Source: Azospirillum lipoferum 4B (GTDB taxonomy: Bacteria > Pseudomonadota > Alphaproteobacteria > Azospirillales > Azospirillaceae). Taken from it: 64,000 bases of DNA. The position numbers and the translations under genes were made by a program. A model generated the notes under the pieces. That model did no database searches. It was not told where the DNA came from and saw nothing but the letters and a program-made list of their open reading frames with translations. This document shows positions 10,446-14,518 of the stretch, one piece after another. The stretch covers positions 1,996,501 to 2,060,500 of the forward strand of contig NC_016622.1 of the NCBI RefSeq assembly GCF_000283655.1, read 5' to 3'. Each line of letters opens with the position of its first letter. Within the stretch, counting starts at the first letter, position 1.

Positions 10446-11149
10446 ACGCCTTCCGCCGGATCGACCTCCCCTCCCCCAACCATGGCCCTCGGGCCGAGGG
10501 TGCGCGGGTGGAGCTGTTGATCCTGCACTACACCGGCATGCCGACCGCCGCCGATGCGCTTGACCGGCTGTGCGATCCGGCGGCCCAGGTCAGCGCCCAT
10601 TACACAGTGGACGAGGACGGCACCGTCTACGCCCATGTGCCGGAGGACCGGCGCGCCTGGCATGCCGGCCGGTCGAGCTGGGGTGGGGTGGAGGACGTGA
10701 ACAGCCGCTCCATCGGCGTCGAGATCGTCAACCCCGGCCACGAGTTCGGCTATCGCCCCTTCCCGCCGGTGCAGATGGCGGCGGTGGCGGAGCTTTGCCG
10801 CGGCATCGTGGAGCGCCACGGGATCGCCCCCGCCGACGTGCTGGGCCACAGCGACGTGGCGCCCTCCCGCAAGGAGGATCCGGGCGAGCTGTTCGACTGG
10901 CCGGGCCTTGCCACCCAGGGGATCGGGCTCTGGCCCACGCCGTCCCAGGCCGATGAGGGTTCCTTCACCGATGCCCCCGTCACCGGCGCCGAAGTCGCCG
11001 CGCTGCTGGGACGCTATGGGTACGACCCGGCCGAGCCGCGAGCGCTGCTGGCTTTCCAGCGCCATTTCCATCCCGATTGCCTGACCGGCACCCCGGATGC
11101 CGAGACGCTGCGGCGCCTGCGCGCGCTGCTGCGGCTGACGGGGCGGTGA
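10442..11149 (+). CDS. N-acetylmuramoyl-L-alanine amidase, AmiD/AmpD type
   Basis: A 235-aa zinc amidase of the Amidase_2 fold. Metal ligands are expected at His29 (in ILHYTG) and in GHSDVAPSRKEDPG near 139-149. The C-terminal part (LLGRYGYDP...LLAFQRHFHPD) matches the peptidoglycan-binding helical domain that distinguishes E. coli AmiD from AmpD. Such enzymes cut the bond between MurNAc (or anhydro-MurNAc) and the stem peptide. E. coli AmiD is an outer-membrane lipoprotein, but no signal peptide or lipobox is visible here, so a cytoplasmic recycling role like that of AmpD is plausible. ATGA overlap with the EamA gene. Confidence 0.9.
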   Translation: MNAFRRIDLPSPNHGPRAEGARVELLILHYTGMPTAADALDRLCDPAAQVSAHYTVDEDGTVYAHVPEDRRAWHAGRSSWGGVEDVNSRSIGVEIVNPGHEFGYRPFPPVQMAAVAELCRGIVERHGIAPADVLGHSDVAPSRKEDPGELFDWPGLATQGIGLWPTPSQADEGSFTDAPVTGAEVAALLGRYGYDPAEPRALLAFQRHFHPDCLTGTPDAETLRRLRALLRLTGR

Positions 11150-11218
11150 TGGCCACTCGCCCCGGCGGCGCCGATCCCTTATATTAGGCACTCCGGCCCA
11201 GCTGAGCGGGAGAGCGGC

Positions 11219-11815
11219 ATGTCGTCCCTGGCCTACAAGCGGATGAGCCTCGACGAGTTCCTGTCGTGGGACGATGGGACGCAGACCCGCTACGAGTTGA
11301 TCGACGGCGTGCCGGTGGCGATGGCGCCCAGTTACGGTGCCCACCAGATCGTCGCAGGAAACATCGCCCGCCATGTCGGCAACGCGCTCGACAAACGTCC
11401 GCCCTGCCATGTCCGATCCGAAGCCGGCATCCTGAAGCCCAACAGCTTCCGCAACTTCTTTCAGGCCGATCTTGCCGTCACCTGCACGCCGCACCGGCAT
11501 GGGCAGTACCACACGCCCGACCCGCTGGTGATCGTCGAGATCCTGTCGCGATCCACCGAGGACCACGACCGCAGGGTGAAGCTGCCGGTCTACCGCTCCA
11601 TCCCGTCGGTGCAGGAAATCCTGCTGGTGCAGAGCGAGTTCCTGTTCGTCGAGGTGCATCGCCGGCTGGACGACAGCCGCTGGCAATGCGACCTGCTGGT
11701 GGAGCCTGGGGACGTGCTTCGACTGGACAGCATAGGCGTCGAGGTGCCGGTGTCGGCACTCTACGCCAATGTGGAACTGGGACCGGAGCCGTCGGACGTC
11801 GAACAGGCTCCCTGA
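11219..11815 (+). CDS. Uma2-family (DUF820) endonuclease-like protein
   Basis: A 198-aa protein with the Uma2 pattern: MSLDEFLSW...RYELIDGVPVAM at the N-terminus, then ADLAVTC and PLVIVEILSRSTEDHDRRVK, which carry the Asp, Glu and Lys of a PD-(D/E)xK nuclease core. The family is abundant in cyanobacteria and soil bacteria and its biological role is not established. A GAG-rich site (GCGGGAGAGCGGC) lies just before the ATG. It stands alone between the amidase gene and rnpB. Confidence 0.85.
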   Translation: MSSLAYKRMSLDEFLSWDDGTQTRYELIDGVPVAMAPSYGAHQIVAGNIARHVGNALDKRPPCHVRSEAGILKPNSFRNFFQADLAVTCTPHRHGQYHTPDPLVIVEILSRSTEDHDRRVKLPVYRSIPSVQEILLVQSEFLFVEVHRRLDDSRWQCDLLVEPGDVLRLDSIGVEVPVSALYANVELGPEPSDVEQAP

Positions 11816-11848
11816 TCTGCCCCTTGCTCCGAATTCGCTATTTGGGAT

Positions 11849-11875
11849 TTGCCCCCACTGCCGCTTCTCTATATG
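11849..11875 (+). promoter_or_regulatory. Predicted rnpB promoter
   Basis: A TATATG -10 element (11870-11875) lies about 7 nt before the first base of the RNase P RNA terminal helix. A TTGCCC -35-like element is at 11849-11854; the spacer is short at 15 bp. The position, not the -35 match, is the main support. Confidence 0.5.
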
Positions 11876-11881
11876 AACGGT

Positions 11882-12290
<409 letters not shown>

Positions 12291-12343
12291 CCCGCACCAT
12301 CGCCCATTCCATCCCGGTTCGGGCAGCCGGCCGGGCCGCATGG

Positions 12344-12388
12344 TCCCATGCCGCCCCAATGGCGGCAGTCCTGACCCATGCCGCCCCA
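12344..12388 (-). promoter_or_regulatory. Upstream MraZ-box array A (four pentamers)
   Basis: NCCCA pentamers start at 12344, 12354, 12374 and 12384. All are on one 10-bp phase, with one position (12364) degenerate. Read on the minus strand they are TGGGN boxes separated by 5-nt spacers, two of which are CGGCA. This is the spacing reported for MraZ operators in E. coli, although the array lies 650 bp from mraZ. Confidence 0.55.
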
Positions 12389-12425
12389 TGGCGACACTAT
12401 TTTGCCCCCGCCCCGCCCAATCGGA

Positions 12426-12450
12426 TGGTTCGGCATGGGACGGCATGGGC
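12426..12450 (+). promoter_or_regulatory. Upstream MraZ-box pair B
   Basis: On the plus strand TGGGA (12436) and TGGGC (12446) are separated by CGGCA. A degenerate TGGTT lies one 10-bp step upstream at 12426. The 15-mer TGGGA-CGGCA-TGGGC is identical to the one on the opposite strand at 12889-12903. Confidence 0.5.
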
Positions 12451-12461
12451 GCTCTCCGGCG

Positions 12462-12767
12462 TCATCCACAGGCCGGGCACAGGCCGGGCTCCGCCCCCCT
12501 CGCCCACATCCCGCAGTTTGCCGGGCTTTCCCGCGGCCATCCCCAGGATGTGCACGGCCCCATCCACATTTTCCCCAGACTAATCCACAGCCGGTGGATA
12601 ACTGTGGGGCGATTTCCCATGCTGTCCCATGCCGGACCGGGCTTTCCCACCCAAGGTTCTATGCCGTCGGAAGGGGTCGATTCGACAGTGCAACAAACCA
12701 TGGATCAATCACATTTTCTTAAAATTTTGGAACGTTTGAAGAACGTGTGTGGATAACTTTATCCACA
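12462..12767. promoter_or_regulatory. Cluster of DnaA-box-like sites
   Basis: Two perfect DnaA boxes face each other with a 2-bp gap: TGTGGATAA at 12748-12756 and TTATCCACA at 12759-12767. One-mismatch boxes lie at 12462 (TCATCCACA), 12581 (TAATCCACA) and 12593 (GGTGGATAA), and a weaker one at 12560 (CCATCCACA). An AT-rich segment flanks the perfect pair, and GANTC sites occur nearby (GATTC near 12680 and 12796). The set could be a replication origin or DnaA control of division gene transcription. Only the box matches are directly seen. Confidence 0.6.
12615..12649 (-). promoter_or_regulatory. Upstream MraZ-box array C (three pentamers)
   Basis: TCCCA pentamers start at 12615, 12625 and 12645, again on a 10-bp phase with one degenerate position (GACCG at 12635). 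On the minus strand the first pair reads TGGGA-CAGCA-TGGGA, close to the repeated 15-mer of the other arrays. It lies between two groups of DnaA-box-like sites. Confidence 0.55.
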
Positions 12768-12883
12768 TTGCCCGTTTCCAACATAATACTGCGACGATTC
12801 AGAAATTTCGTACACCAACTTGCTCGGATGCCACAGCCAGACTCGAAAGTCTTGACACCCCCGTCTGAATACTCGGGGGGCCG

Positions 12884-12923
12884 TTGACGCCCATGCCGTC
12901 CCATGCTATCCCAAGAATGCCCA
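12884..12923 (+). promoter_or_regulatory. mraZ promoter overlapped by a four-box MraZ operator
   Basis: A TTGACG -35 (12884-12889) is followed, after 17 bp, by GCTATCCC (12905-12912), which resembles alphaproteobacterial -10 elements. Four NCCCA pentamers start at 12889, 12899, 12909 and 12919 with exact 5-nt spacers. On the minus strand this is TGGGN repeated four times, the known MraZ operator layout. The boxes cover the whole spacer, the -10 and the expected start site, so MraZ binding would block RNA polymerase (autorepression of the cluster). The promoter assignment is inference; the box array is plain in the sequence. Confidence 0.75.
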
Positions 12924-13043
12924 TTTAAGGGGGGCTCTTACCCATTCTGGTTAACACCGGGGGCGGGAGCTGAATGGGCCAAGCGGGGCTAGCGCGGAGC
13001 ACCCGACCGCGCACGGGGGATAGCAGGGGGGATCGCCGGGCCT

Positions 13044-13541
13044 ATGGCCGTTTTCCTGTCCACATACGTCAACAAGGTTGACAGGAAAGGGCGTGTGTCC
13101 ATCCCGGCACAGTTCAGGCAGTCGCTTGCCAAGACGTCGGCTCCCAGCACCGTCTATCTCTGGCCCTCGCTGAACCACCAGGCGCTGGAAGGCGCCGACC
13201 AGGACTATCTCGACGTCCTCTCCGAAAGCCTCGAATCCCCCGACCTCGATGCCGACGAGCGCGACATGATCGAGACCTTCATCTTCGGAAAGCTGATCCC
13301 CGTCTCCTCCGACGCCGAAGGCCGCATCGTCCTGCCCAAGGAGCTGGCGGAATTCGCCGGCATCACCGAGGAGGCCGCCTTCATCGGCCGCCGCAAGACC
13401 TTCCAGATCTGGGAACCCGACGCTTTGAAAGCCCACGAGGCCGCGCTCCGCGAGCAGGTCGTGCGCAAGGACATCTCCCTCAGCCAGATCGTCGCCAAGG
13501 CCTCCCGCGGCGCCGCCAGCCGGAGCGGGGAGGGCGCCTGA
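13044..13541 (+). CDS. mraZ: Transcriptional regulator MraZ
   Basis: A 165-aa protein with two AbrB/SpoVT-like swapped-hairpin domains: [23 protein letters not shown] at the N-terminus and [24 protein letters not shown] near 85-112. In other bacteria MraZ forms ring-shaped oligomers that bind phased TGGGN repeats and repress its own dcw operon. Matching repeats lie at 12889-12923. A G-rich Shine-Dalgarno (AGGGGGGA) precedes the ATG by about 12 nt. Its stop overlaps the rsmH start by 1 nt (TGATG). It is the first gene of the 13-34 kb cluster. Confidence 0.96.
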
Positions 13542-14518
13542 TGACCGGAAACACCCCCATCCATATTCCCGTCCTGCTGGACGAGGTGATCGCGGCCTTG
13601 GCCCCGCGCGACGGCGGCCTCTATGTCGACGGCACCTTCGGCGCCGGAGGCTACAGCCGTGCCCTTCTGCGCTCCGCCTCCTGCCGCGTGATCGGCATCG
13701 ACCGCGATCCCGCCGCGATCGAGCGCGGCCGTGCGCTGGCCCAGGAATTCCCGGGCCGGCTGGAGGTGATCGAGGGCCGCTTCGGCGACATGGACCGGCT
13801 GCTGGCCGACCATGGCGTGACCAGCGTGGACGGCGTGGCGCTCGACGTCGGCGTCTCCTCCCCCCAGATCGACGAGCCGGAGCGCGGATTCTCCTTCCGC
13901 TTCGACGGCCCGCTCGACATGCGGATGGGACGGGATGGGCCGACCGCCGCCGACGTGGTCAACACCGTCGACGAGGCGGAGCTGGCCGACATCATCTATC
14001 ATCTGGGCGAGGAGCGGATGGCGCGCCGAGTCGCCCGCGCCATCGTCGCCGCCCGCCGCGAGGCGCCGATCGAGCGCACGGCGCGGCTGGCCGAGATCAT
14101 CCGCTCCGTGGTGCCGAAGGGGAAGGGCGACGGGATCGACCCGGCGACCCGCAGCTTCCAGGCGCTGCGCATCCATGTGAACGACGAATTGGGCGAATTG
14201 CGGCGCGGCCTGTCCGCCGCCGAGTCGCTGCTGGCGCCCGGCGGGCGTCTGGCCGTCGTCTCCTTCCATTCGCTGGAGGACCGCGAGGTCAAGGCGTTCC
14301 TGCGCGAACGCTCCTCGCCGCCGTCCTCCCCGTCCCGCCATACGCCCGTGACCGCGGTCGCGGCGCATCACCCATCCTTCCGCCTGCTCTCCCGGAAACC
14401 CGTGGACCCGAGCGAGGCCGAAGCCCGCAACAATCCTCGCGCCCGGTCCGCCCGGCTGCGCGCGGCTGAACGTACCGAGGCGCCCGCGTTTCCGGCGCCC
14501 GGCAAGGAGGCAGCATGA
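13541..14518 (+). CDS. rsmH: 16S rRNA (cytosine(1402)-N(4))-methyltransferase RsmH
   Basis: A 325-aa SAM-dependent methyltransferase (MraW) that modifies the N4 of C1402 in the ribosomal P site. The SAM loop [11 protein letters not shown] is at residues 29-39. The family blocks [24 protein letters not shown] and [16 protein letters not shown] are all present, and the length is typical. The start overlaps the mraZ stop, and the end overlaps ftsL in ATGA. Confidence 0.97.

Follow-up and report, generated by a model that had tools for sequence, protein, structure and literature searches.

The regulator MraZ is very widespread among bacteria, and boxes for it at the dcw promoter of Escherichia coli were reportedly described by Eraso et al. 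in 2014. The looping repressors LacI, GalR and AraC combine a main operator at the promoter with remote operators. The locus described here, the mraZ region within a 64,000-nucleotide stretch of Azospirillum lipoferum 4B DNA (the window), resembles these in that candidate remote operators are found upstream and inside the transcribed region, beside a main operator; it differs in that LacI, GalR and AraC act as dimers or tetramers on palindromes, whereas MraZ, an AbrB-type protein, forms rings and acts on repeated boxes, and its loop is a predicted one. Further likenesses come from three dcw loci. In E. coli, MraZ boxes at the dcw promoter and autorepression of dcw are described in the accessible parts of PMC8475190 and PMC7761207; in the K-12 sequence we likewise found 10-bp-phased TGGG repeats at the mraZ promoter, whereas over 20 kb the pairs there are restricted to those of the promoter (-43, -33) and our locus adds arrays at -428 and beyond. 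The MraZ site of Burkholderia cenocepacia consists of four phased repeats that overlap the dcw start, with recognition by an octameric ring suggested; it shares with our locus the phased repeats at the dcw promoter, and differs in that a single promoter site is described in the accessible part of the source (PMC7761207). In the alphaproteobacterium Rhodobacter sphaeroides the region upstream of mraZ is likewise long and regulated, through a leader RNA and with no promoter reported near mraZ in the part seen of PMC5089854, whereas here we find DNA boxes and a promoter-like element; this conserved, putative element would argue against a leader of the UpsM type, in which the stretch from leader start to mraZ is free of promoters. 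Remote auxiliary operators would be a variation on the known MraZ promoter operator, and we recognised no report of them among the MraZ papers listed within reach of our search, which most subscription papers lie beyond.

Phased TGGG boxes between rnpB and mraZ

The features of the locus are collected in Table 1. The gap between rnpB and mraZ measures 756 bp, and the MraZ protein of the window shares 98-100% identity with that of A. oryzae and of the other nearest loci. TGGG occurs 23 times in the gap (both strands, promoter included), in some cases out of phase. A preliminary description of the sequence had reported nine phased distal boxes, which we recovered at 12345-12649, 395-700 bp ahead of the mraZ start codon (13044) and in steps of 10 or 20 bp within groups: seven on the minus strand (12345, 12355, 12375, 12385, 12616, 12626 and 12646) and two on the plus strand (12436 and 12446). 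The 15-mer TGGGn-CrGCA-TGGGn, said to recur about five times with the promoter counted, was found in exactly five copies (12345, 12375, 12436, 12616 and 12890). The three distal arrays of that description are all present; they are not equivalent, as only the 12616/12626 boxes are retained genus-wide (38/38).

Table 1. Features of the mraZ region, in window coordinates
Feature	Position	Strand	Remarks
Pair in amidase gene frame, MraZ-type	10934..10947	-	one mismatch to strict pattern
Pair in amidase gene frame, MraZ-type	11007..11020	+	
rnpB (RNase P RNA), bounding the gap on the left	11886..12287	+	Rfam RF00010, 290 bits
Clade-specific MraZ-type pair	12345..12358	-	one mismatch to strict pattern
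Clade-specific MraZ-type pair	12375..12388	-	one mismatch to strict pattern
Clade-specific MraZ-type pair, opposite strand	12436..12449	+	
Palindrome ATCCACAGCCGGTGGAT, two inverted DnaA-like boxes, adjoining the distal pair	12583..12599		15/17 Azospirillum rows
Core distal MraZ-type operator (putative), two boxes, TGGGACAGCATGGG	12616..12629	-	homologous place in 38/38 Azospirillum gaps
Third TGGG box of the distal group	12646..12649	-	phased; no conservation in the alignment
LexA-type box GAAC-N7-GAAC, ~310 bp upstream of mraZ	12730..12744	+	24/37 family rows
Two DnaA-like boxes, TGTGGATAA and TTATCCACA	12748..12767		
Promoter-like element TTGACG-N17-TATCCC, overlapped by the array	12884..12912	+	read from sequence; conserved in alignment
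Promoter MraZ array (putative), boxes 12890, 12900, 12910, 12920	12890..12923	-	at least 2 of its 3 pairs in 38/38 rows
mraZ	13044..13541	+	Pfam MraZ PF02381, E 2e-13; PDB MraZ 1n0e, E 0.00027
Pair inside rsmH, MraZ-type	13926..13939	+	one mismatch to strict pattern

The promoter core CCCATGnTATCCCA was present in all 38 Azospirillum rows, and the promoter-like element lies ~150 bp upstream of mraZ. The location expected of a dcw promoter operator is occupied by the array at 12890-12923 and not by the distal pairs, which are therefore termed auxiliary. A recent duplication of the promoter as the source of the distal pairs was rejected: by eye, the flanks of 12345, 12616 and 12890 are unlike one another beyond the boxes. 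Just upstream of the promoter (12850-12873) there is a further conserved motif, TCTTGACA-N10-AATACT/ATTACT, the spacing of which does not fit a sigma-70 promoter.

We compared the number of phased boxes with several controls. The gap minus the promoter array (12288-12869) contains four phased pairs versus a mean of 0.17 in dinucleotide shuffles (0/5000 reached four), and the window contains ten TGGG-N6-TGGG pairs versus 3.9 expected (0/100 shuffles reached ten), all ten confined to the ~3 kb around mraZ (10934-13939). With TGGG alone counted within 3 kb of mraZ (spacer letters free, promoter left out, gaps 0-26), the N6 gap was found 82 times in 16 Azospirillum genomes and 74 times in 20 others, the other gaps 2-15 and 2-29 times, respectively; near mraZ no period but that of 10 bp is prominent, and other repeat spacings lack enrichment. 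Over whole genomes the loose pair and its backwards control gave 200/179 (G001), 184/185 (G010), 176/184 (G020), 126/108 (G062), 109/143 (G101) and 365/245 (G083). An equal density of phased boxes elsewhere, which the preliminary description had named as the result that would speak against it, was thus encountered neither in the shuffles nor in the window count nor in the scan of these six genomes. Three pairs had not been listed with the distal arrays there: two upstream of rnpB (10934 and 11007) and one within rsmH (13926).

Conservation in Azospirillum and range beyond the genus

Conservation within the genus was assessed for the window and 37 genomes (38 rows; 30 + 7 loci). The distance between the 12616 pair and the promoter core is 284 bp in 17 rows (the window among them), 286 in 13, 285 in six, 283 in one and 293 in one (SD 1.6), compared with an SD of 101 for the distance from rnpB, the end of which was located via a sequence anchor, to the distal pair and of 4.0 for that from the core to the ATG. 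Two or more candidate operators for one repressor at a conserved distance are found within Azospirillum (283-286 bp in 37/38), not across genera. The spacer between distal pair and promoter is mostly diverged except for short conserved islands (over its first 200 bases, identity to the window is 76-88% for the nearer rows, 13 in number, and 58-71% for the more distant L014-L037, 24 rows). Further pairs between rnpB and the 12616 pair occur in 22/38 gaps, at varying places, and the other distal groups are for that reason younger or looser. Loss of the arrays in close relatives, the second result named beforehand as adverse, holds, beyond the nearer clade, for two of the three arrays and does not hold for the 12616 pair. 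A set of 28 Azospirillum-type loci taken by name, including one with the label Roseomonas and many of the above genomes under their names, has a strict distal site in 27 cases and a loose one in all 28. The exact 14-mer TGGGAYRGCATGGG is present in 45/45 Azospirillum genomes, and each of its 25 matches in eight whole genomes is no more than ~1.5 kb away from where mraZ starts, with no match for the backwards control; among the matches listed, G067 apart, three are off the mraZ contig (G007, G017 and G029).

The strict pattern TGGGAYNNYATGGG was then scanned in 36 whole genomes of Azospirillum's family (13 genera, 230 Mb). The 175 sites recovered are distributed as follows: 51 in mraZ promoters, 75 at -2500 to -230 (in 30/36 genomes), five at 0 to +2500, two at 2.5-10 kb and 42 beyond 10 kb. 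The upstream number compares with 0.015 expected from the background beyond 10 kb, an excess that is not a probability, the pattern being drawn partly from these loci and the related genomes not being independent; after removal of amidase-spacer sites and overlaps it is 63, in 30/36 genomes and 10/13 genera. One of the 20-kb stretches (L132) is only 16.4 kb long. A strict distal site was absent in six of the 36 family genomes (G030, G074, G072, G102, G082 and G080), and G030 has a looser pair at the homologous distal place. In other genera of the family the distal sites are found at other positions and on either strand (e.g. plus at -453 in g26), and no common helical phase across genera was seen; the position turns over between genera and the feature persists. 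The distal site tracks mraZ and not rnpB: with rnpB ending ~1.4 kb upstream of it in one genome from g26 and another from g28, the site is still at -453/-454. In three loci (L119, L124 and L126, from g29, g35 and g36) strict pairs are found inside rnpB and others 190-840 bp upstream of rnpB. Regulation of rnpB by the distal sites is unsupported where the site stays with mraZ and rnpB is elsewhere, and possible in g29, g35 and g36.

Outside Azospirillum, mraZ was found in 68 genomes. The 28 loci compared, all from other families (1.5-kb flanks), contain a promoter pair in 27 cases, a loose distal pair in four and a strict distal site in one, and four 20-kb loci of other families contain no strict distal site. 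For 51 further named loci (six of Azospirillum's family) these numbers are 44, 16 and 4, where two of the 16 loose distal pairs, those of L219 and L236, lie near -270 and could instead belong to the promoter. A wider MraZ regulon was searched for with triple arrays in 15 genomes and was rejected: the 44 matches (32 in mraZ promoters, 12 elsewhere) are not above the backwards control (19), and the 12 non-promoter arrays lie away from mraZ in 11 cases and 2.9 kb upstream of it in one (G062).

Possible roles of the distal pairs

The reading we favour, and consider reasonably probable, is that the distal pairs are auxiliary MraZ operators that would keep the repressor close to the dcw promoter, for which bridging or looping of the DNA is the most likely means. 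The main array would cover the promoter-like element, and the 12616 pair, 27 helical turns upstream, together with the weaker or younger outer pairs, would be bound by further faces of the MraZ ring on the main array, or by adjacent rings; the remote pairs could bind the same ring because it has spare binding faces. The bridged or looped DNA would raise the local MraZ concentration and tighten repression of mraZ-rsmH and the downstream fts and mur genes. Looping fits best because one distal pair holds a near-fixed distance to the promoter: 284 bp corresponds to 27.05 turns at 10.5 bp per turn, and the 293-bp row to 27.9 turns. The favoured reading also draws on the way in which the distal site tracks mraZ and on the codon choice in rsmH and the amidase frame (see below). 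Against this, other conserved motifs in the spacer (GATTC, the LexA-type box) could fix its length without a loop; the 12616-type site has two conserved boxes only, fewer than the promoter array; and the varying spacing and strand in other genera, together with the six family genomes that lack a strict distal site, also count against it. Near-fixed remote operators would directly explain the large ring of MraZ, as one ring could hold several DNA segments.

Alternatively, the distal pairs could be MraZ sites that serve as a local reservoir or decoy and buffer MraZ without looping, for which the variable position and strand of the pairs among genera would be expected; decoys could sit anywhere, yet the sites crowd at mraZ and one of them stands at a near-constant distance from the promoter, and we regard this as rather unlikely. 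Control of a second promoter in the gap, which would give an SOS- or DnaA-controlled transcript or a leader or sRNA like Rhodobacter UpsM, is likewise an improbable role. It is in line with the LexA-type and DnaA-like boxes between both arrays and with the 268-nt leader and sRNA UpsM described for the R. sphaeroides dcw in the part seen of PMC5089854; however, no conserved -35/-10 pair was visible by eye in the alignment at the distal boxes, no Rfam family scored above threshold in the gap, and the conserved promoter-like element is close to mraZ. That MraZ bound upstream works as a roadblock, or as an insulator, and keeps transcription of rnpB from reading through into dcw would agree with rnpB being co-directional and directly upstream in the window, but the site persists in g26 and g28 with rnpB far off, and one genome each of g29, g35 and g36 has some of its sites inside rnpB or ahead of it, so that we give this role little credence. 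The preliminary description had also left room for another DNA-binding system. That MraZ binding is a prediction from sequence speaks for such a system; the core of the promoter boxes and their 10-bp phase are shared by the distal pairs, the promoter array is found in 27/28 loci outside Azospirillum, and the strict sites concentrate at mraZ, which supports the MraZ-box reading well and makes a different protein very improbable. Chance, or the composition of G+C-rich DNA, can be practically dismissed given the shuffles, the spacing controls and the 38/38 conservation, which contradicts it outright for the 12616 pair, although single loose pairs occur every 37-39 kb in three Azospirillum genomes and a loose-pair peak at +4 kb has non-consensus spacers and resembles coding chance. 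This +4 kb peak, seen in both groups, was not counted among the MraZ sites, its spacers being mixed.

LexA-type and DnaA-like boxes and pairs in coding frames

Within 500 bp upstream of mraZ, a LexA-type box is found in 37/78 class-level loci (six from Azospirillum's family). The LexA-related pattern has 22 matches in three genomes versus seven for the backwards control, and the same form adjoins lexA and ssb in G101 (both genes confirmed by Pfam). The gap contains a box of the GTTCN7GTTC type, as found at lexA in relatives, and LexA control is predicted. This is the type of the Caulobacter LexA consensus in the accessible parts of PMC12700426 and PMC9578287, and binding of B. subtilis LexA at an mraZ homologue from gut metagenomes, by EMSA, is described in that of PMC3998124. 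The box suggests an SOS input to dcw. DnaA-like boxes number five in all (12462-12767) and flank the distal MraZ pair; the longer palindrome pattern has its sole match at the homologous place in 7/8 whole genomes and none in the eighth. MraZ-, LexA- and DnaA-type sites share one ~450-bp control region before the cell-division operon, and the LexA-type and DnaA-like boxes may couple dcw to replication and DNA damage. The DnaA-like boxes and an A+T-rich stretch prompted us to consider an oriC, which was rejected: a parS-like site is at least 656 kb from mraZ on the same contig in 13/14 genomes of relatives (linear distances; circular ones may be less, e.g. in G005) and on another contig in G001, and the GC skew, negative over the 20 kb to the right of the gap, does not fit. 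The gap is probably not a replication origin.

A broader scheme, which we put forward tentatively and hold to be rather doubtful, has MraZ of the Azospirillales assemble a multi-loop nucleoprotein hub on its own operon, reaching ~2 kb upstream into the amidase gene and 0.9 kb downstream into rsmH. The DnaA and LexA sites would then lie within the main loop or next to it, and dcw transcription would be set by a loop that opens or closes according to replication state and DNA damage. The pairs at both ends of this span lie in coding frames. The rsmH pair encodes Met-Gly-Arg-Asp-Gly, with the Gly codons GGA and GGG in 33/38 rows each. The usual Gly codon in rsmH is GGC (724/938 across 25 conserved Gly columns); GGA has the majority in no other conserved Gly column and GGG in two others. 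A strict pair at ~+835 is also found in two loci outside the family (L154 and L220). The amidase-frame letters GGA CGC TAT GGG occur in 11/12 motif-bearing rows, the motif being missing in 5/17 rows examined. This codon choice in favour of the box letters hints at selection on the DNA, with the caveat that the rows share ancestry. A Uma2-family gene (11219-11815) separates the amidase gene from rnpB. In nine near relatives (L001-L007, L009 and L011) the amidase box is closer to mraZ by ~0.7 kb; in others, e.g. L104, L105 and L115, it is placed as here.
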